From: Micrococcales bacterium
GTDB lineage: Bacteria > Actinomycetota > Actinomycetes > S36-B12 > UBA5976
NCBI GenBank assembly: GCA_024640585.1
Contig: JAHEEQ010000034.1
Location: 21,911-30,564 of the forward strand
Length of the DNA stretch: 8,654 nt
Direction: 5' to 3'
Shown here: in pieces, positions 2-8,531 of the stretch
Layout of the letters: every line of letters starts with the position of its first letter
Position numbering within the stretch: the stretch's first letter is position 1
Translations under genes and position numbers: made by a program
Notes under the pieces: generated by a model
What the model was told of the DNA's origin: nothing
Database searches by the model: none
Seen by the model: only the letters and a program-made list of their open reading frames with translations

Positions 2-883
2 GCATTCTGTAGCGCAACCAAAGCCAATCGTTTAAAGCTACATCGACTTCCATACAACCCGTTAAGTTTGTATGGCGACATGCCAATGTTGCCGTTGCAC
101 ATTGCAACAGGTTTTACTGAAACGATGGCTAAAGCATTTGGCCTTGGACAGAAGCAGCAACTTCGCTTGAGAAAGCTGATCCTTGATGCATACGAAGGGG
201 CTGGAATTGTGTTGGCTGATAGCGCCACTTGGAAAAATCCCGCTCCAACACTGGCTACAGTTTGGGAGCTATTTCTTCAGCAAGATAAGGTTGAAGAGGA
301 TTCTTTATATGCAGCACTGGACAGTTTGGTCTCCTATCAAATTTTCGAACCGAATGCTCAGATGGTGCAGTCACTGTATGACATGCTTGATGATGTAACA
401 GTGATTGAACTGGCAGGCTACTCACCTCAGATTCAAAACTTGGTAGTAGCCTTAACTCTCGATCTGTTCTATTCTCAGATGCAAAAAAGAGGAAAACCTA
501 CTGTTAAAGGCGACTTTCGACAAATCACGAAAATGGTCCTCGTTGATGAAGCTGATAACTTCATGAAGGAAGACTTCCGTAGCTTGCGGAAAATCTTGAA
601 AGAAGGTCGTGAATATGGCGTTGGTGTGATTCTGTCAACTCAAGACATAACGCACTTTAAGACCGGAGAAAACAATTACGCTTCGTACATCTTGACGTGG
701 GTTGTTCACCGTGTTGCTGAGATTAAAAATGCTGACATCAAGGCAATTTTTAACAAAGACGATAAGACAGAGCAGGAAGGTCTTATGGAGACTATCCGTC
801 GACTTGAAAAGCACTACAGCCTTTATATCGACGGAGATAAGCATGTTCGAAAGATGCGAGACAAGGCGTTTTGGGAGCTCTAA
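2..883 (+). CDS. dptH: DptH-like phosphorothioation-dependent restriction ATPase, C-terminal fragment
   Basis: This is the last 293 codons of a gene that enters from the left edge. The frame is open from base 2, so the TTG at 68 and the ATG at 80 are internal codons, not starts. The fragment has the end of a HerA/FtsK-like P-loop ATPase: a Walker B strand KMVLVDEADNF (fragment residues about 177-187), an upstream strand VTVIELAGY (about 132-140), and a sensor-like VILSTQDITHF (about 209-219). The Walker A motif must lie off the window. In the DptFGH (DndFGH) family, DptH is the large ATPase subunit that, with DptF and DptG, damages DNA lacking phosphorothioate marks. The assignment rests on the ATPase tail plus its position converging on dndBCDE; dptF and dptG would be expected further left. 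A different HerA-type defence ATPase is the main alternative. Confidence 0.82.
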   Translation, partial: AFCSATKANRLKLHRLPYNPLSLYGDMPMLPLHIATGFTETMAKAFGLGQKQQLRLRKLILDAYEGAGIVLADSATWKNPAPTLATVWELFLQQDKVEEDSLYAALDSLVSYQIFEPNAQMVQSLYDMLDDVTVIELAGYSPQIQNLVVALTLDLFYSQMQKRGKPTVKGDFRQITKMVLVDEADNFMKEDFRSLRKILKEGREYGVGVILSTQDITHFKTGENNYASYILTWVVHRVAEIKNADIKAIFNKDDKTEQEGLMETIRRLEKHYSLYIDGDKHVRKMRDKAFWEL

Positions 884-903: not shown

Positions 904-1275
904 CTAGGCGGCAAGCCTGATAAGGTCTTCAACTTTCAGCAGCTTCGGATTCCCTGACATGTAGGAAATTCCGCGATGCAAATGCAGCCGGAAATATCGT
1001 GTCAGGGATTCTTTGTTAAGTGAAATCCCTGCGTTATGTGCCCTTAGTTTGATCAAGGCTAGATAAATTTCTTCATCACCTCCAGTGAAGGTTTTCCAAG
1101 TCATCTCAATTGAACTGTCTGATGGAATATCTTCGTTTGGAGGTTCTGAATTTTCGTTCAAAGAAATGCACAGAGCCCATCGGCACAAAGTATTCCAGTT
1201 TTGTATGCCTGTTCTTCGTTTGAGAGTGATCAGCTGAACTTTTCCTTTTTCGGAAACTCGTACGGTATCAATCAT
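904..1275 (-). CDS. dndE: DNA sulfur modification protein DndE
   Basis: This 123-residue protein matches the usual DndE length and its place as the last gene of the dndBCDE set. Recognisable family stretches are RTGIQNWNTLCRWALCISL (residues 21-39) and the basic HLHRGISYM (98-106). DndE proteins are small helical DNA-binding proteins; the E. coli B7A member was reported as a tetramer that binds nicked double-stranded DNA through a lysine-rich surface. Together with DndC and DndD it forms the machinery that inserts sulfur into the DNA backbone, though its exact step is not settled. The ATG overlaps the dndD stop in an ATGA junction. A strong AAGGAGG ribosome binding site (plus-strand 1280-1286) lies inside the end of dndD, so this start is secure and DndE may be translated efficiently in its own right. 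Confidence 0.93.
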   Translation of the reverse strand: MIDTVRVSEKGKVQLITLKRRTGIQNWNTLCRWALCISLNENSEPPNEDIPSDSSIEMTWKTFTGGDEEIYLALIKLRAHNAGISLNKESLTRYFRLHLHRGISYMSGNPKLLKVEDLIRLAA

Positions 1276-3251
1276 GCAACCTCCTTCGAGTATTCGAAAT
1301 AGCCTTTAACAATTTCTGAGGACTGTTTTCGATCATCGTATTCAATTAAGTACTGATGCGAAATGTGTTTTTTTAGTGTGCGGTGGTAAGAGCCGATGAT
1401 CTCTTCGTCTGTTGATAGCAATATGACTTGTTCTCCGGCGTAAGGGAAGTAGTTCTGTACAAATGATTTGCGATGACTGCTATCCAGTCGTCCAAGTGGT
1501 GTATCAATCACGGTTGGCAACTTTCGTCCTGAAGCCTGTGCAAGAGCCCATAAGACTGCAACAGCTAGTAGTTGTCTTTCACCTGCGGATAATTTTGATG
1601 CTGGTACGGCACCTTCCCCGACGATTTTTATCGTTAACATGAAGGTGTCGGGACAAATTGAAATCGAGCTGACAAATGATTTTTTTCTCAGAAGAATTTC
1701 AAAGCCTTCACGAATCAGTTTTTGTAAATTCGCGATGTGTTTGTTTCTTATCTTTTCCTCAAAATTTGCGAGAACTTGACGTCCACGAACTAGTTGTTCA
1801 TGCATTTTGATGAGATGTTTTTCTTCAGCTTCATTTTTCCGAATTTCGTCTGAAGCTGTATGGAATTGCTTAGTTGACGATTCGAGATCTCTTTTGACTC
1901 TATCGATTTGGTCTTGATACCCATCACGCTTGGACTCATGAGATCTGATCTCATCTTCTGTTAATTTAATTTCTATGAATAGAGGTTCAAGCTTAACGGC
2001 GTCTGGGACGGCAAGAAGTTGACGTTCAATTTGATCGAGTTCTGTTTGAAATTTTCCTAACTCTAGCAATTGCTTTAAGGCGATTGAACGGTTGTGAGTG
2101 CCTTCAGTCCTGGTTCTGAAAATACTCTCTTTGGAAAAGTTGATTTCTGGCCTGGAGTCATCATCATTTTGAATTTCGATCAAAGTCGAGTGAATTTTTC
2201 TTAGAAATTCAATTTGCGATTCGGAAAATTCTGTGCGTCCAGAAAGCTCACTGATAACACTAGAGCTAAATGATGAAAGCGCGTCTTGAACAACTTCCTT
2301 TTGATCGAGTGTGAGACCATTTCTGGCCAATGCTTCTAATTGTTTGACCATCCCTTCAAGTAAAGTTAAAGGTAGATTCGAAGAGGCAAGTTCTATTAAC
2401 TCTGTTCGTTTGCTTGATACAAGTGATAGCAACTCATTTTGACGTTGAACAAGTAAGTCACGTTGCTCGAAAAGATCGCCACCTTGCTGCTTTAATTGCG
2501 ACCGGAGCGTTTCTAGTTGTGATTGCAGACCACTTAGTTTGGCCAAAATTTCCGACATCTCGTGATCTAAGCTTTGCTGTTGATCAGTAAGTACTGTGAC
2601 TTTTTCATTCAAGCGCAAAATCTTTTCTTTATGTTCCTCACTGACACCCTCTACCTTGAGTCGACGATCAAGGGTTTGCAGTGTTTTGGATAGATCAGTC
2701 ACAAGATCTAATCCCAGTAATGAATTTAGTCCTGTACGAATTAGTTCGCTGCAACGTGCAGGTTGAGCCAATGACTCAATTCGTTCACCGTCGAAGAAAA
2801 ACAAATCAGAAAGTTGGCTTGGGAAGAATGTCTCTGAGAGTTCCGGCCAGCGCTCAGAAAGCTCTAAGTCAAGCTCTCCATTTTTGAATACTTGAACAGT
2901 ATCGGCTGATGCTCCGTGAGTCTTTAAAGACCACGTTCTAACAACTTCAAACTGCTGTTGTCGCCCCCTTCGCTTCGTAATAAAGGAAACACTGACTGAT
3001 GCAGAGTCTTGAAGGTTCCGACGATTCACCGAATTTGTTAGGAAGTCTAGGTATGCAGTTTTGTTTTTGCCGAGAAATTTTGCAAATTTTCCGAATAATG
3101 CAAACTGGATCCCTTCAAGTAGTGTTGTCTTTCCAGAGCCGTTCAATGCTCCTATCAAGATGATTGGGCGGTCTGGTTTGGGCGTGATATCGATTTCATG
3201 TCGTCCGGCGTAAATACCGAAGTTGTGAAGGGCTAGTTTTGTAAGAATCAT
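1272..3251 (-). CDS. dndD: DNA sulfur modification protein DndD, SMC/Rad50-like ATPase
   Basis: This 659-residue protein has the split ATPase layout of the SMC/Rad50/RecN group. The N-terminal lobe carries Walker A GALNGSGKT (residues 34-42) and FFFDGERIESLA (151-162), typical of DndD. Residues about 200-270 and 400-510 are Glu/Lys/Gln-rich and heptad-like, consistent with an antiparallel coiled coil. The C-terminal lobe has the signature KLSAGERQ (553-560), Walker B and D-loop LPTVIDTPLGRLDSSHR (578-594), and LLSTDEE (611-617). No CxxC zinc hook is present at the turn of the coiled coil. In the family, DndD hydrolyses ATP and acts with DndC and DndE, probably altering DNA structure during sulfur insertion. 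Start and stop overlap dndC and dndE by 4 bp each (ATGA), indicating translational coupling. All ATPase motifs look intact. Confidence 0.95.
   Translation of the reverse strand: MILTKLALHNFGIYAGRHEIDITPKPDRPIILIGALNGSGKTTLLEGIQFALFGKFAKFLGKNKTAYLDFLTNSVNRRNLQDSASVSVSFITKRRGRQQQFEVVRTWSLKTHGASADTVQVFKNGELDLELSERWPELSETFFPSQLSDLFFFDGERIESLAQPARCSELIRTGLNSLLGLDLVTDLSKTLQTLDRRLKVEGVSEEHKEKILRLNEKVTVLTDQQQSLDHEMSEILAKLSGLQSQLETLRSQLKQQGGDLFEQRDLLVQRQNELLSLVSSKRTELIELASSNLPLTLLEGMVKQLEALARNGLTLDQKEVVQDALSSFSSSVISELSGRTEFSESQIEFLRKIHSTLIEIQNDDDSRPEINFSKESIFRTRTEGTHNRSIALKQLLELGKFQTELDQIERQLLAVPDAVKLEPLFIEIKLTEDEIRSHESKRDGYQDQIDRVKRDLESSTKQFHTASDEIRKNEAEEKHLIKMHEQLVRGRQVLANFEEKIRNKHIANLQKLIREGFEILLRKKSFVSSISICPDTFMLTIKIVGEGAVPASKLSAGERQLLAVAVLWALAQASGRKLPTVIDTPLGRLDSSHRKSFVQNYFPYAGEQVILLSTDEEIIGSYHRTLKKHISHQYLIEYDDRKQSSEIVKGYFEYSKEVA
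1280..1286 (-). promoter_or_regulatory. Strong ribosome binding site of dndE
   Basis: The minus strand reads AAGGAGG, then four bases, then the dndE ATG. It is the best Shine-Dalgarno match in the window and lies inside the last codons of dndD. It fixes the dndE start and suggests a higher translation rate than for dndD, whose own start has no clear site. Confidence 0.8.
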
Positions 3252-4762
3252 TTAACGATCTCGTCTTCGGGGTCAATTTCAGCTAAGTCACTCAGCTCAT
3301 CTTCAGAAGAAACTTCTGAGTAGGTATAAATCTGGTCTGTGTGACTCAACTTAAATTCAAGTGCTTCTTCTGCATTTATGAATGCGTGTTGCTTTAAGGT
3401 TTTTTCTAACGATTCGAAAATTCCGTGCCTCCGATAAGCGCCACGATAGTTTTGTTCTGTATGAAGCATTTCTCGCAACATTTGGTAATGAATGCCATCC
3501 GGGTCATCTTCGCTAGATGCAAGTTCTTTCAAGATGTCCAAGTCCTCTTTAGAAAAGAGTGGCTTTTCATCAGAGTCAGTAGCTGGATATTTCTTTCCTG
3601 TTGCAAGTTTGAAAATTCTAGGAAGGCTATCCTCGATTTCATGTTTTTCGTCAACCCAAATTCGCCGAATTTCTTCAAGTTCTTCGAGTGAGATTAGTTC
3701 GAAATTTTCCAAACCATGCGGAGCATCTTTTCTGATTTGACTTTGAGCTTTTAAAAGCTCAAGCAACAGCTCCTCTCGATAGGACTGCTTATATGGTCCA
3801 TGGATGAGGCCAGGACCTTCTTTCTTTTGATAAACCGTTAAAGTGCGGTCCATCCTTCTGAAGTCGCGATTCACAAAATCGTCGGACGTACTCAATTTAT
3901 TTTCACGCAGTTGAGCCAGTGGGATCATCCACTTCTTATCTTCATCGTTTTGAATCATCGCCATCATCGATTTGTCTTTATCGACCATCGTGCAGACAAA
4001 GCATCCGAAGCGACTGTCTCCACAACTCGGCGTTGTGCTATCAACGACTAAGGGGCACTCTGCGTCTGGTGTAGCACCTTTATATAGATGAAACAACTCG
4101 ATATTGCTGTGATCCCAAGCGTTTTCGTTTTCAATCAAGTATTCCCAAACGTCATCGCTACTCCAATCCGCGATAGGGGGGAAGATCCAGACTCTATCAA
4201 GACGAGGATCAGAGTTTCTACTAAGAAGCTCACGCGTGCTACCTTCGTGTCGCTCCATAACCTTCTTACGTGCTTGGCTTTCGCCTGAGCGTGTGCCGAG
4301 GAAAAGAATTGCTTCTCCACGTTCGGTCGCTACATTACGAACAAAGTCAGTAGACGCATTTATCTTTAATCGACTAGTGCACCATCTAAATTTTGGTCGT
4401 GGTGCTGGATAGCCTTTGCCAATTAAGTTCACCCAAAATCTATCCTCTAGTTTTGGGACCAATCGACGAGCTTCTATGTTCATCTTGCCTTTTTGAGAGG
4501 CAACATTAATTTTTGATAGTGATAGTTGTACCCAGCGAGCGACAACTGGATTCTCAACAAGTGTGTCTGTTGAAATTACATAGATTTTCTTTGTGCGCTC
4601 ATCTACTGGTATGGATTCAACTGCGCGCCAAACAAGCTGCAATACAGTTGTCGAGTCTTTGCCTCCGCTGTAGCCAATGATCCACGGTAATTCATCGGCA
4701 CGATATAAATCAGCAATGTTTTTTGTTGCTGAGTTAATTTTCACTGAAAGGTTAGATGCCAT
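3248..4762 (-). CDS. dndC: DNA sulfur modification protein DndC (PP-loop, Fe-S sulfurtransferase)
   Basis: This 504-residue protein belongs to the PAPS reductase/ATP pyrophosphatase (PP-loop) superfamily. The nucleotide-binding motif is YSGGKDST (residues 31-38). A second conserved block runs through FRWCTSRLK (125-133) and FLGTRSGES (154-162). Cysteines at 128, 236, 247, 254 and 257 (the last two in GCFVCT) are the likely Fe-S cluster ligands and sulfur relay sites; which ones bind the cluster is inferred. DndC receives sulfur from a cysteine desulfurase (DndA or IscS) and activates the DNA backbone with ATP. The last 28 residues or so are strongly acidic, which may be a contact surface for a partner. 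It lies 4 bp after dndB and overlaps dndD by 4 bp. The ATG at 4762 leaves the PP-loop about 30 residues from the N-terminus; only a weak GAG-type ribosome site precedes it. Confidence 0.96.
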   Translation of the reverse strand: MASNLSVKINSATKNIADLYRADELPWIIGYSGGKDSTTVLQLVWRAVESIPVDERTKKIYVISTDTLVENPVVARWVQLSLSKINVASQKGKMNIEARRLVPKLEDRFWVNLIGKGYPAPRPKFRWCTSRLKINASTDFVRNVATERGEAILFLGTRSGESQARKKVMERHEGSTRELLSRNSDPRLDRVWIFPPIADWSSDDVWEYLIENENAWDHSNIELFHLYKGATPDAECPLVVDSTTPSCGDSRFGCFVCTMVDKDKSMMAMIQNDEDKKWMIPLAQLRENKLSTSDDFVNRDFRRMDRTLTVYQKKEGPGLIHGPYKQSYREELLLELLKAQSQIRKDAPHGLENFELISLEELEEIRRIWVDEKHEIEDSLPRIFKLATGKKYPATDSDEKPLFSKEDLDILKELASSEDDPDGIHYQMLREMLHTEQNYRGAYRRHGIFESLEKTLKQHAFINAEEALEFKLSHTDQIYTYSEVSSEDELSDLAEIDPEDEIVK

Positions 4763-4766
4763 CTTT

Positions 4767-5864
4767 TTAATCTCTCATTGCTTTTCTTGATTTGTTGAAG
4801 GATGCATCGGCTTTTCGTTCATCAGGAGAAAGTTCTATTCCGATGGACTTCTTGATAAATGCGGATGCCAAAATTACGCTATTGGTTGCTTTATTCAGGC
4901 GGCCTCCTAGCATTACTCGCCCCTCCCAGTCTTTGGCATTAGCCCTAGACCAGTTAATTTTTTTTAAATTTGTTAGAGCCGAATAGTCAGCTTTATGTCC
5001 AGAGTTAAGGGCTGCACCAACTCTCCCAAATGCTTGTAGTAAGACTCCATGAGAGTGAACAAAATCACGTCTGATTTCTCCAGCAGTCATCTTTGACTTG
5101 CGAACAAGTTGCCATTCGGGGATGTGTTTTGACAATTCATCCCAAAACTTGATTGCTTCGTTAGCTGCATCCTCTTGTGTCTTGTATTCCTTAAGACCAA
5201 GAAAATCTGAAGTAGCAGAGCACAGAGCGCTTAGTGTGAAAAGTTTTCGTGAACGTTCAGAAAGTGTGCTTCTTTCAAGTTCAACCATGCCACTAAATGC
5301 CTCTGATTTCAGGGCGACAAGTTTTCCGATTTTGGCTAAATCATTTCGTTGGTCGTAAAGTAGACCAAGTGATTTAGAAGGCCGAATTGCATGTCGATTC
5401 AGGTCCGCAAACATCTGCTGGCTTCTTGATAAGCCCTGGTCAACAAAGAAGACAACGGCGATTGTTTCATCGCTCAGCGTTTGGTCTTCTTTGATTGCTT
5501 GTTCAATGGCAGCGCGTCGATGTTGTCCGTCATTTATGATGAATTGGTTCTTCATGTCTACATGAAGAATTCCCATCCGATCATCGCTAACTTTGTTGCC
5601 TATGGGTGTAAAGCGAACATCACCGTTAATTGAGGCGGTAATAGCTGAGAAAACATAGTCATTTTTGTTTTCAAGGATGTACCTAGACATTTCCGGTATG
5701 CGACTTCTGTTCAGCGTTCTTTGCGCCCGTAATTCTGGAGTTAGCTCTTCGTCGTCAAAAAGAAATATCCTAGGAATGAGGCGCAGTGGGCACATAGATA
5801 TGTAGTACTCCCTGCCGGCCTGAACACCTCTTATGGATGGAAAAGTATACTCAAAATTTGACAT
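4767..5864 (-). CDS. dndB: DNA sulfur modification protein DndB, transcriptional repressor of the dnd operon
   Basis: This 365-residue protein carries the DGQHR motif, NDGQHRRAAIEQAI (residues 111-124), followed by DQGLSRSQQMFADLNRHAI (142-160), both hallmarks of the DndB/DGQHR family. In Salmonella enterica Cerro 87, DndB was shown to bind two regions of its promoter and repress itself and dndCDE, with Cys29 important for binding. Cys25 here, in ISMCPLRLIPR, is probably the equivalent residue. It is dispensable for modification but tunes its level. An in-frame TGA five codons upstream rules out a longer start, and no good Shine-Dalgarno precedes the ATG. Instead, a perfect 12-bp palindrome covers the start codon. 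As first gene of dndBCDE, its expression sets that of the whole operon. Confidence 0.94.
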   Translation of the reverse strand: MSNFEYTFPSIRGVQAGREYYISMCPLRLIPRIFLFDDEELTPELRAQRTLNRSRIPEMSRYILENKNDYVFSAITASINGDVRFTPIGNKVSDDRMGILHVDMKNQFIINDGQHRRAAIEQAIKEDQTLSDETIAVVFFVDQGLSRSQQMFADLNRHAIRPSKSLGLLYDQRNDLAKIGKLVALKSEAFSGMVELERSTLSERSRKLFTLSALCSATSDFLGLKEYKTQEDAANEAIKFWDELSKHIPEWQLVRKSKMTAGEIRRDFVHSHGVLLQAFGRVGAALNSGHKADYSALTNLKKINWSRANAKDWEGRVMLGGRLNKATNSVILASAFIKKSIGIELSPDERKADASFNKSRKAMRD

Positions 5865-5942: not shown

Positions 5943-8531
5943 TTAATTGTTTTCCTGGCTAGGTTCAATCAACTGTCCAGGTTTAAGGGTCCTTGGGATC
6001 TTTTTACCCTCACCGTAGGTGAGCATCAAAGAAATTTGCTTTAGCGGGGCGTCGCTAACACTTACATGTAATGGTCTATTTCTTCCGTAATAGTAAAGAC
6101 GATCAAAGGTCGTGTTGCTTGCGATCCAATTAGCAACTTCAAGCATGTCTTCATCTTCGATATAGAAATCAACAGCTGCCCCTAGCCGATCACAAATTGG
6201 ATTTCCGAGCCGATTGCATTCATGGCCGCTGTGTTGGTCGAGCTTTGGGGCAATGTTTGAATCAATCTTCTTTGCGAGTTCGGATGAGCTAAATCCGTAT
6301 GTCAAGACGATTGATCCAAAGTAATCAATGACAGGATCTAAGACTTCCAAAGCTAGTCTTGAAAGTGCGTTGTAGGTTTTTGGATTGAGGGGGACATTAC
6401 TGACACCAAGCCGCTTTTGTGTTTGTCCGCATTCAACGAAGTCGCGATACTTAAAGTTGGCTCCACAGAAGTCATCCAGTGAAGGAATTGACTCTGAAGG
6501 CGTTAGCTCAAATCCTGAAATAGAGAGCCGTCTAGTTTCAAGTTGATTTGTTAGTTCTTCAAATCCAGGTCCAAACGATGTCACGTCTATCAAACCTGTA
6601 CTTTCTAGGGACTCATCGAATGCAAGTTGCTCAGCATAGCCATCCGTGTCTTCATTCATGTACCTGCTCTTTCTGTATAAAACCGTAGAAGGGTACTGAA
6701 GAGAGCCGTACTCAAATTCGTCATACTCTTGCTTTCGCAAGTTAATTTTGACTCTCCGCTTGAGAAGCGGAAGAGGGGTTGTATCAAAGTTTTCGAACTC
6801 TAAAAATGTCAGTTTCCCTGAGCCAATGTGAATCTTGACAAGATGCACTTCACTCATTGAGTCCCAAACGATAAGACCGCAAGTTACGTATGCTCTGAGC
6901 AAAACCGGAAGCCTTTCCAGGAGACTTATGTGGAAATGCAACGCTTGATTTGTATCAAGCCATCCAAGTCCCTCTTCAGACGCTTGATCGCATGCAGACA
7001 AAATTTCAGAGGGGTTGGCTGCTCTCATGATTAGCTGGAGTCCTGCGGTTTGCGCAGTCTTGTAATCATTGAAAAAGTACTTTATGTCACGCTGAAGTCT
7101 TGCTTCTAAATTTCTGTATGTCGGCCTTTTTTCAAACTGTTGAGCAGCCAAGTACAAAAGCAATTCGTCAGCTCTTTCAGTCGAAGCTGCTTCAAGTAGC
7201 GAATGGTCGAAATGTGTTTGCAGAAGTCTGAGTGCTCGGGAGTATCGATCGGTCTTTGCTAGTAACTCATCAAGAAAGCTAACCTCAATAGGCTCGGGAT
7301 AACGTCCTAAATCTAACGATAAGGTCCATAGCCTGTGAAGTACTTCAGAGGCTTCCTGAAACTGCCGTTCAGTTTTAGTTAAACGGGGGATTCTTGTTCT
7401 TGGAGTTCTAGCCTCTTTAACCCTTAGGAGTCTGGCAGTCAGCAATCTTTCAGTGAAATCAGTGCTTCTAAATCTCTTGGCGTTGAAATTTTGCTCTGCA
7501 TCCTTGTCTGCAAAAATTAGTGCTACACCTGGGCCTGCCATGAACACTTGCTGCCCAAGTGCATGCTCAAGATAGTCTTTGAGTTCACCCTGGGAAAAGT
7601 ATTTTTGGAAGGTGTTTCGTGAAGTTAAAAAGCCATCGCGAAATGGTTTTCCTGGCTGTTCAGGTCCGTACAACATCACTGAAACAGCAAGAACTTTGTT
7701 TGCTAAAGAAAATGCTTTTTGAATCGCTTCAACTCGTTCTGCTGAATCTTCGATCACATTAACCACGAAACCTAAATTAACGACATCAGCAGATTGAATT
7801 TCGTTTTCAGGTGCGTAGTGAGGGTCCCACCCTCCGACAGAAATTCCAGCATCCTTAAGTGCCGACATGTCTGTTCCTCGACCACAGCCATAGTCAAAGA
7901 AGGAACTCTCGGAGGACAAAAGTCCGTGCTTGATGAGGATCTGAACTGGAGCGGAAAGTGTTGCCCTGTTCAGTGCAGTAAGGTGACGTTGAACTTTGTC
8001 AGATCTCGATTCATTCTCAGTTTGTTCAATATCATGAGAATTTCCAAGAGGAGTAAAGCCTGTCGAGGAAAGACTGTAGCCTTTTCCCGCGACGAGTTGC
8101 AGCCAATTTTTCCTAAATCCAATTGTTCGAGTGTTATCGAATAAACCTAACTCTTCTGCCTCAGCTGTGAGCCTTTGCCATTCTTCGCGCCTTGGGTAAT
8201 TTGATGTAACTAGTAGTTCTTTCCTGTGAAGAATCGGTGGATTGAGCGATGTTCGATATGTTCTATAGGTTGGTGTGTCTGATGAGGGTTCTATGACCCA
8301 GCTACCTAATAAAGTTGGAAAAGCTGATTCCTCGAATGGCTCGTACTCAAGAAGCGAGATTTTTCCTGAGCGAAGATTAAGCTTAACTACATTTATTGCA
8401 GAAGATCTTTCTTCAGGTATGCATTTAAATGCAGCGTTTATTAAAGCTTGGTGTGCCTCTTCTTGCACTGTTTCAATGGCAGAAACATGCAGGTACAGAT
8501 CGTCAAAAACACGCTTCCCAATAAGTGTCAT
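5943..8531 (-). CDS. DNA phosphorothioation-associated putative methyltransferase with duplicated module and M15-like C-terminal domain
   Basis: This protein has 862 residues. A class I SAM-methyltransferase core shows motif I FFDYGCGRGTD (211-221) and the block VVNLGFVVNVIED (250-262), which resembles the putative methyltransferase family found in dnd loci. An N-terminal module (about 47-162) reappears at about 562-679, and residues about 380-530 look mainly helical. The C-terminus (about 690-830) resembles M15 peptidases: a helix-strand region ending YFGSIVLTYGFSS, then SGH at 768-770, GAAVDF (784-789) and RPLHVSVS (819-826). Candidate metal ligands are H770, D788 and H822. The true substrate is unknown. 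No catalytic DPPY/NPPY-type DNA methylation motif is evident, so DNA methylation is not shown. The ATG overlaps the upstream stop (ATGA) and follows AAGGG (8539-8543). Confidence 0.85.
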   Translation of the reverse strand: MTLIGKRVFDDLYLHVSAIETVQEEAHQALINAAFKCIPEERSSAINVVKLNLRSGKISLLEYEPFEESAFPTLLGSWVIEPSSDTPTYRTYRTSLNPPILHRKELLVTSNYPRREEWQRLTAEAEELGLFDNTRTIGFRKNWLQLVAGKGYSLSSTGFTPLGNSHDIEQTENESRSDKVQRHLTALNRATLSAPVQILIKHGLLSSESSFFDYGCGRGTDMSALKDAGISVGGWDPHYAPENEIQSADVVNLGFVVNVIEDSAERVEAIQKAFSLANKVLAVSVMLYGPEQPGKPFRDGFLTSRNTFQKYFSQGELKDYLEHALGQQVFMAGPGVALIFADKDAEQNFNAKRFRSTDFTERLLTARLLRVKEARTPRTRIPRLTKTERQFQEASEVLHRLWTLSLDLGRYPEPIEVSFLDELLAKTDRYSRALRLLQTHFDHSLLEAASTERADELLLYLAAQQFEKRPTYRNLEARLQRDIKYFFNDYKTAQTAGLQLIMRAANPSEILSACDQASEEGLGWLDTNQALHFHISLLERLPVLLRAYVTCGLIVWDSMSEVHLVKIHIGSGKLTFLEFENFDTTPLPLLKRRVKINLRKQEYDEFEYGSLQYPSTVLYRKSRYMNEDTDGYAEQLAFDESLESTGLIDVTSFGPGFEELTNQLETRRLSISGFELTPSESIPSLDDFCGANFKYRDFVECGQTQKRLGVSNVPLNPKTYNALSRLALEVLDPVIDYFGSIVLTYGFSSSELAKKIDSNIAPKLDQHSGHECNRLGNPICDRLGAAVDFYIEDEDMLEVANWIASNTTFDRLYYYGRNRPLHVSVSDAPLKQISLMLTYGEGKKIPRTLKPGQLIEPSQENN
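6042..6464 (-). other. M15-peptidase-like C-terminal domain region of the methyltransferase protein
   Basis: Residues about 690-830 have the order of elements typical of D-Ala-D-Ala carboxypeptidase-type (M15) metallohydrolases: NPKTYNALSRLALEVLDPVI, then YGFSS, SGH, GxAxD (784-788), FDRLYYYG (809-816) and LHVSV (821-825). Between SGH and GxAxD there is an insertion of 13 residues, longer than the usual SxHxxGxAxD spacing. Where many relatives have a catalytic Glu near the FDxLIYE strand, this protein has Tyr815. The comparison is from memory of the family pattern, not a computed alignment. Confidence 0.6.
6495..6848 (-). repeat. Internal module copy 2 of the methyltransferase protein (residues about 562-679)
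   Basis: Motifs parallel to copy 1 are HLVKIHIGSGKLTFLEFENF, then LYRKSRYM, then STGLID and a closing LSISGFELTPS. The module length (about 118 residues) is nearly the same as copy 1 (about 116). This copy directly precedes the M15-like domain, suggesting that each module is an accessory or recognition part serving the domain after it. Confidence 0.65.
8046..8393 (-). repeat. Internal module copy 1 of the methyltransferase protein (residues about 47-162)
   Basis: This module has the pattern VVKLNLRSGKISLLEYEPF, then LHRKELLV, then ELGLFD and a closing YSLSSTGFTPL. The same order of motifs returns in copy 2 about 515 residues later. It is diverged at protein level, so the duplication is old. 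Here the module directly precedes the methyltransferase core. Confidence 0.65.

Follow-up and report, generated by a model that had tools for sequence, protein, structure and literature searches.

A divergent M15/Hedgehog-fold domain fused to a phosphorothioation-associated methyltransferase-type protein

Dnd and type-4 BREX systems are covered by PMC10853773 and PMC12839542, in whose main texts the term 'M15' does not appear, and related phosphorothioation (PT) families are described in PMC3226654, whose consulted passages contain no TIGR04096/M15 family. Consecutive dnd genes of a Rhodococcus, one of them named for TIGR04096, are presented in the consulted part of PMC8416521; the methyltransferase of PMC9927239, as described in the excerpts consulted, is unrelated. 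Here we describe an 862-residue TIGR04096-type protein with a C-terminal M15-like domain, encoded in an 8,654-nucleotide stretch of a Micrococcales bacterium (assembly GCA_024640585.1, contig JAHEEQ010000034.1, positions 21,911 to 30,564), the whole of which we call the window. The papers found to pair 'phosphorothioation' with 'M15' use the latter as a genotype or strain name, and no description of a TIGR04096/M15-like fusion or gene pairing was found in the literature searched, whose scope left out subscription papers and supplements. To that extent, the coupling of this domain to TIGR04096, fused or adjacent, is apparently new.

An earlier note on this DNA had proposed that an M15-fold domain and a PT-associated methyltransferase share one polypeptide. 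They do, and the three motifs on which the proposal was built (SGH, GAAVDF and LHVSV) lie where it placed them. The protein consists, in order, of a duplicated alpha+beta domain, a class I methyltransferase, a helical region, a second copy of the duplicated domain and the M15-like domain. Its parts and the residues discussed below are as follows.

5943..8531, minus strand: 862-residue TIGR04096-type protein (TIGR04096 E 5e-159, residues 180-677)
8037..8531, minus strand: first (N-terminal) copy of the alpha+beta domain, spanning residues 1 to about 165 (matches residues 501-680 in blastp, E 1e-7)
7503..7997, minus strand: class I S-adenosylmethionine methyltransferase fold, residues 179-343
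6501..6944, minus strand: second (C-terminal) copy of the alpha+beta domain, roughly residues 530-677
5946..6500, minus strand: M15/Hedgehog-fold domain, residues 678-862
6288..6290, minus strand: S748, which occupies the place of the Arg in M15 SGYRS (Arg in 4/4 phage enzymes)
6231..6233, minus strand: H767, putative metal ligand 1 (DQH), aligned with SQH of phage M15 enzymes
6186..6227, minus strand: insert of 14 residues (about 769-782, with E771, C780 and R782) between H767 and D788, missing from four aligned phage M15 sequences
6168..6170, minus strand: D788, putative metal ligand 2 (GAAVDF), aligned through phage M15 with D161 of 1LBU
6066..6068, minus strand: H822, putative metal ligand 3 (LHVS), aligned with the H of phage M15 GW[VI]H

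The protein resembles the dnd_rel_methyl family, TIGR04096, in that the model is matched by residues 180-677 at 530 bits, well over its curated cut-off of 150 bits, and the locus carries dndBCDE. It differs in that the family model stops before the C-terminal 185 residues, which some members lack. Methyltransferase activity is predicted from the class I fold and the glycine-rich loop FDYGCGRGTD. On either side of the methyltransferase lies a copy of one alpha+beta domain, the two copies having diverged, and a second TIGR04096 profile match falls on the N-terminal copy in three genomes and one plasmid. A structure model of the whole protein has a mean pLDDT of 83.3 and a pTM of 0.60, so we make no claim about domain packing.

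As judged by fold prediction and homology, residues 678-862 form a divergent M15/Hedgehog-fold domain whose predicted fold is the one common to solved M15 enzymes and is shared by the Hedgehog N-terminal domain. Outside the family, phage endolysins are nearest in sequence and a DD-peptidase is nearest in structure. Kinship to M15, as anticipated by the earlier note, held at the level of fold and failed at the level of the Pfam score: Peptidase_M15_3 (PF08291) gives 12 bits on a 214-residue piece, below its gathering score of 23.2 bits, and reaches E 0.1 or better in 5 of 66 relatives, the best at E 0.0018. Searches against the sequences of solved structures, run with two alignments, returned nothing relevant. 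Relative to the PF08291 phage endolysins and the DD-peptidase 1LBU (a zinc enzyme of Streptomyces albus G), the domain has the 14-residue insert between H and D, a shorter loop ahead of the last H, no SGYRS Arg, and near-invariant E, C and R residues of its own.

Comparison of relatives indicates that the metal residues are retained and their surroundings rebuilt. We aligned 314 rows: the best 120 of 927 proteins matched by residues 678-862 at E 0.001, the best 120 (182-210 residues long) of 1523 matched by a profile that includes stand-alone forms, and 74 fused genome open reading frames (ORFs). These are mutually related, top-scoring entries of longer lists, and the 74 ORFs were chosen from 83 clustered ones by a length of at least 400 residues and a [DE]QH pattern, which biases that subset toward QH. 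H767, D788 and H822 each occur in 314/314 rows (for H767, the 74 QH-selected rows included), as do E771 and R782, and C780 occurs in 313. All six residues are also kept in every one of 14 divergent stand-alone proteins, in which positions 701 and 802 vary. H767 is equated with H154 of 1LBU through the phage M15 alignment; 1LBU itself aligns weakly to phage M15 (E 0.064), its residues 154 and 161 being H and D, and its metal ligands are H154, D161 and H197. The H, D, H set of M15 peptidases is present, on sequence evidence.

The earlier note had named H770, D788 and H822 as ligands; the latter two stand as candidates, and H767 takes the place of H770, which is His in 278 of the 314 relatives and is replaced by other residues in 10 of the 14 divergent proteins. 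The Arg of SGYRS is catalytic in M15 peptidases. At the corresponding position, S748 in the window, the fused set of 120 has C, S or A, the stand-alone set of 120 has C, the genome rows have C or S, and Arg never occurs in the 240 listed homologues, the 74 genome rows or the 14 divergent proteins. A separate family of about 210-260 residues (SNExNxAxHIWDxRD...GAxACIV...AFN; loci L158, L159, L160, L165, L167 and L009) appears to be related to M15: it has the same insert and retains the Arg, but its H, D, H residues are gone.

The same fusion was sought beyond the window and turned up repeatedly in protein, contig and genome searches, which rules out a one-off event. Among 398 genomes from the phylum of the seed genome G003 (Rhodoferax), TIGR04096 exceeds its cut-off in 11. 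The domain profile gives 17 matches there; the seven strong ones (E 1.1e-38 or lower) all fall within the 11 TIGR04096 genomes, as do six of six once G003 is set aside. Five of the seven are fused in a single ORF and two are separate genes in dnd loci. The 10 weaker matches, judged from their sequences, divide into five ordinary M15_3-like proteins and five members of a degenerate family. Genome G629 has the M15-like gene immediately upstream of TIGR04096, and in G612 it overlaps the end of dndE, with TIGR04096 about 1.2 kb further on the opposite strand. In the class of seed genome G001, seven of 369 genomes exceed the TIGR04096 cut-off, four of them with the domain behind the core (one being G001 itself and one cut at a contig end). 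The order of G612 yields the domain in one of 249 genomes, namely G612, and the order of G629 in 12 of 247, always as a stand-alone gene; in eight of these 12 the gene lies directly upstream of TIGR04096, whose nearest candidate start ranges from a small overlap to 34 bp past its stop. Relatives of the domain occur, then, fused to TIGR04096, directly beside it as a separate gene, or within a dnd operon. In one such operon, an HNH endonuclease gene (HNH_4) follows the M15-like gene (L169:8475-9620), and a related gene pair lies beside TIGR04096 in L170.

A scan of genome contigs gave 260 domain loci, of which the best 80 by domain match were kept; 52 of these best 80 carry at least one PT gene by simple clustering. 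The count covered cysteine desulfurase, DndC, SspD-like PAPS reductase, DndD-like, DndB, DndE and SspB-like genes and left out DndH-, BrxL- and PglZ-like neighbours. Representatives of the neighbour clusters, one each, are SspB, SspC, SspD and SspE (PADLOC), BrxL and a PglZ-like protein, and with neighbours so named, proteins of the 862-residue type go with Dnd, Ssp and BREX-4 types. One related viral contig bears a fused copy.

Stand-alone proteins of about 190 residues, cyanobacterial where named, share the domain and its signature with the window, and some are labelled 'Peptidase M15A C-terminal domain-containing' in UniRef; the cyanobacterial ones differ in being encoded by a separate gene and in forming their own tree branch. 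On cyanobacterial plasmids, three of six such genes have TIGR04096, cysteine desulfurase or PAPS reductase genes no more than 10 kb away. The Pseudanabaena stand-alone gene gave no phage match. In Aeromonas caviae (a 4.9-Mb record labelled plasmid; L001:12013-13535), an M15-like gene precedes an ORF in which 81 residues resemble the beginning of TIGR04096 (E 5e-20), which looks like a TIGR04096 remnant; in L189, an M15-like gene of close similarity stands first in a TIGR04096-dndB-dndC-dndD run.

The remaining four of the 12 stand-alone genes in the order of G629 (L186, L187, L188 and L190) lie near genes for a class I methyltransferase of about 200 residues and a PLD/helicase protein of 877-974 residues. 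The genes are collinear in three of the four, with one extra gene between in L187.

L186:9029-13243: collinear cassette of M15-like, roughly 200-residue class I methyltransferase and PLD-SF2 helicase genes
L187:8934-13989: collinear cassette with the same gene set
L188:4914-9199: collinear cassette with the same gene set

The PLD/helicase proteins of L186 and L190 match PLDc_2, ResIII and Helicase_C in Pfam and have an S24-like end; the other copies were identified from similarity or by visual inspection. This architecture resembles that of SauUSI-type restriction enzymes, and a relative is labelled mREase_IV by PADLOC. From these features, we regard the cassette as a candidate defence system. 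DndC was not found in the four genomes (it was detected in 3/3 positive genomes), nor was TIGR04096, in a search without a match whose target family was detected in other searches. SspD gave only weak matches there (21-23 bits, against 439.5 in a positive genome), and BrxP-type sulfurtransferases were not searched with a model of their own. Restriction of the domain to PT systems is ruled out by these genomes without detected DndC, SspD or TIGR04096, and the case for a strictly PT-specific role is weakened.

The M15-like domain is under selection, as a comparison of its similarity to the window with that of the methyltransferase core indicates. The domain is the closer part in 70 of 74 loci (medians 54.6% and 43.8%), these being the loci with at least 400 aligned core residues among the best 80 by domain match, a ranking that favours the domain. 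As a control, we used 10 fused loci found through TIGR04096, three of them in the seed genomes G001, G002 and G003. The domain is again the closer part in seven of seven non-seed loci (51-56% versus 39-45%; one cut by a contig end), and in seed G003 the core is closer (67% versus 63%). We built a tree from 77 domains, 29 of them fused. A single change accounts for the fused set in 84% of 200 bootstrap trees, and the branch support is weak (50/60). The cyanobacterial stand-alone domains form one branch (100/99), and several stand-alone rows are long branches of unsure placement. The tree is compatible with, and does not prove, a single fusion event.

A repurposed metal-binding partner is probable because, in several defence operons, relatives are fused to methyltransferases of this kind or lie close to them, and the repurposing of the M15 fold suggested by the earlier note is likely, the metal residues being kept and the peptidase Arg lost. 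We tentatively favour, at somewhat below an even chance, a catalytic reading in which the domain would be a metal-dependent hydrolase or lyase paired with the class I methyltransferase. H767, D788 and H822 would hold one metal, probably zinc, and E771, C780 and R782 of the family-specific insert may contribute to a new active site that compensates for the missing Arg. The domain would then act on a cytosolic substrate and not on peptidoglycan, and together with the methyltransferase would make up a single accessory module with two activities, serving modification-based defence (Dnd, Ssp, BREX-4 and the PLD/helicase cassette), which might, for example, methylate and cleave the same small molecule or peptide.

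Several observations weigh against this catalytic reading. The SGYRS Arg is lost, and Foldseek alone found no match of the domain model to the PDB at E 0.001 or better. By the same clustering, no counted PT gene shows up in 28 of the 80 domain loci, 15 of which span at least 15 kb, and three of the six cyanobacterial plasmid copies have no annotated PT genes within about 12 kb. Four of the 11 TIGR04096 genomes among the 398 have no domain match; of the other three genomes in the class of G001, one lacks the domain and two are cut off ahead of its position; and only three of the best 26 plasmid TIGR04096 rows reach the C-terminus. The conservation itself could also be explained by a structural metal site like that of Hedgehog, whose N domain has a metal site in a binding protein. 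A metal-bound, non-catalytic module of that kind, docking the methyltransferase to the Dnd or Ssp machinery, a nuclease or DNA, is a serious but somewhat less likely alternative.

The proximity to phage endolysins in sequence and to a DD-peptidase in structure might point to a peptidoglycan hydrolase acting as a lysis or abortive-infection effector. We judge this very unlikely for a domain embedded in a large multi-domain protein in which the SGYRS Arg is missing, along with an E and a W invariant in the four aligned phage enzymes; no export signal is seen by eye, although phage endolysins often lack one too. That the domain senses cell-wall fragments or phage lysis proteins and thereby triggers PT defence is highly improbable. 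Fold kinship speaks for it; against it, the recurring neighbour in the Pseudomonadota samples is a class I methyltransferase. A functionless passenger, suggested by the TIGR04096 genes that lack the domain, is barely credible for a domain better conserved than its core, also in the seven of seven loci that were not domain-selected, and retained as a separate gene in several gene orders.

The rest of the window is a Dnd locus in which dndB, dndC, dndD and dndE stand together, with a dndH fragment convergent with that operon. Within the window limits, the 862-residue ORF is the first of the minus-strand run.

4767..5864, minus strand: dndB (TIGR03233 E 5e-154)
3248..4762, minus strand: dndC (TIGR03183 E 6e-188)
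1272..3251, minus strand: dndD (TIGR03185 E 4e-160)
904..1275, minus strand: dndE (TIGR03184 E 7e-35)
2..883, plus strand: C-terminal part of dndH (PADLOC DndH E 2e-169, profile positions 1386-1678 of 1678)

The DndD protein (1272-3251) matches the PADLOC PbeC model (E 3e-196) better than the DndD model (7e-168). An Rfam search gave no match, and promoter-like sites are rarer than in shuffled sequences.

In the literature searched, the TIGR04096 protein is a named and unexplained companion of PT genes. A second domain that has kept its metal residues and is linked to it by fusion or gene neighbourhood gives it a concrete, testable second activity and a few residues to mutate. The cassette in which no PT genes were detected suggests that the pairing of methyltransferase and M15-like domain is not limited to sulfur chemistry. 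It is conceivable, if unlikely, that the methyltransferase and the retooled M15-like domain constitute a portable module with two activities, combined with Dnd, Ssp, BREX-4 and the PLD/helicase cassette, that generates or removes a modified compound (a small molecule or peptide) by which the restriction arm is licensed or restrained. If so, M15 chemistry would be used intracellularly in immune signalling.
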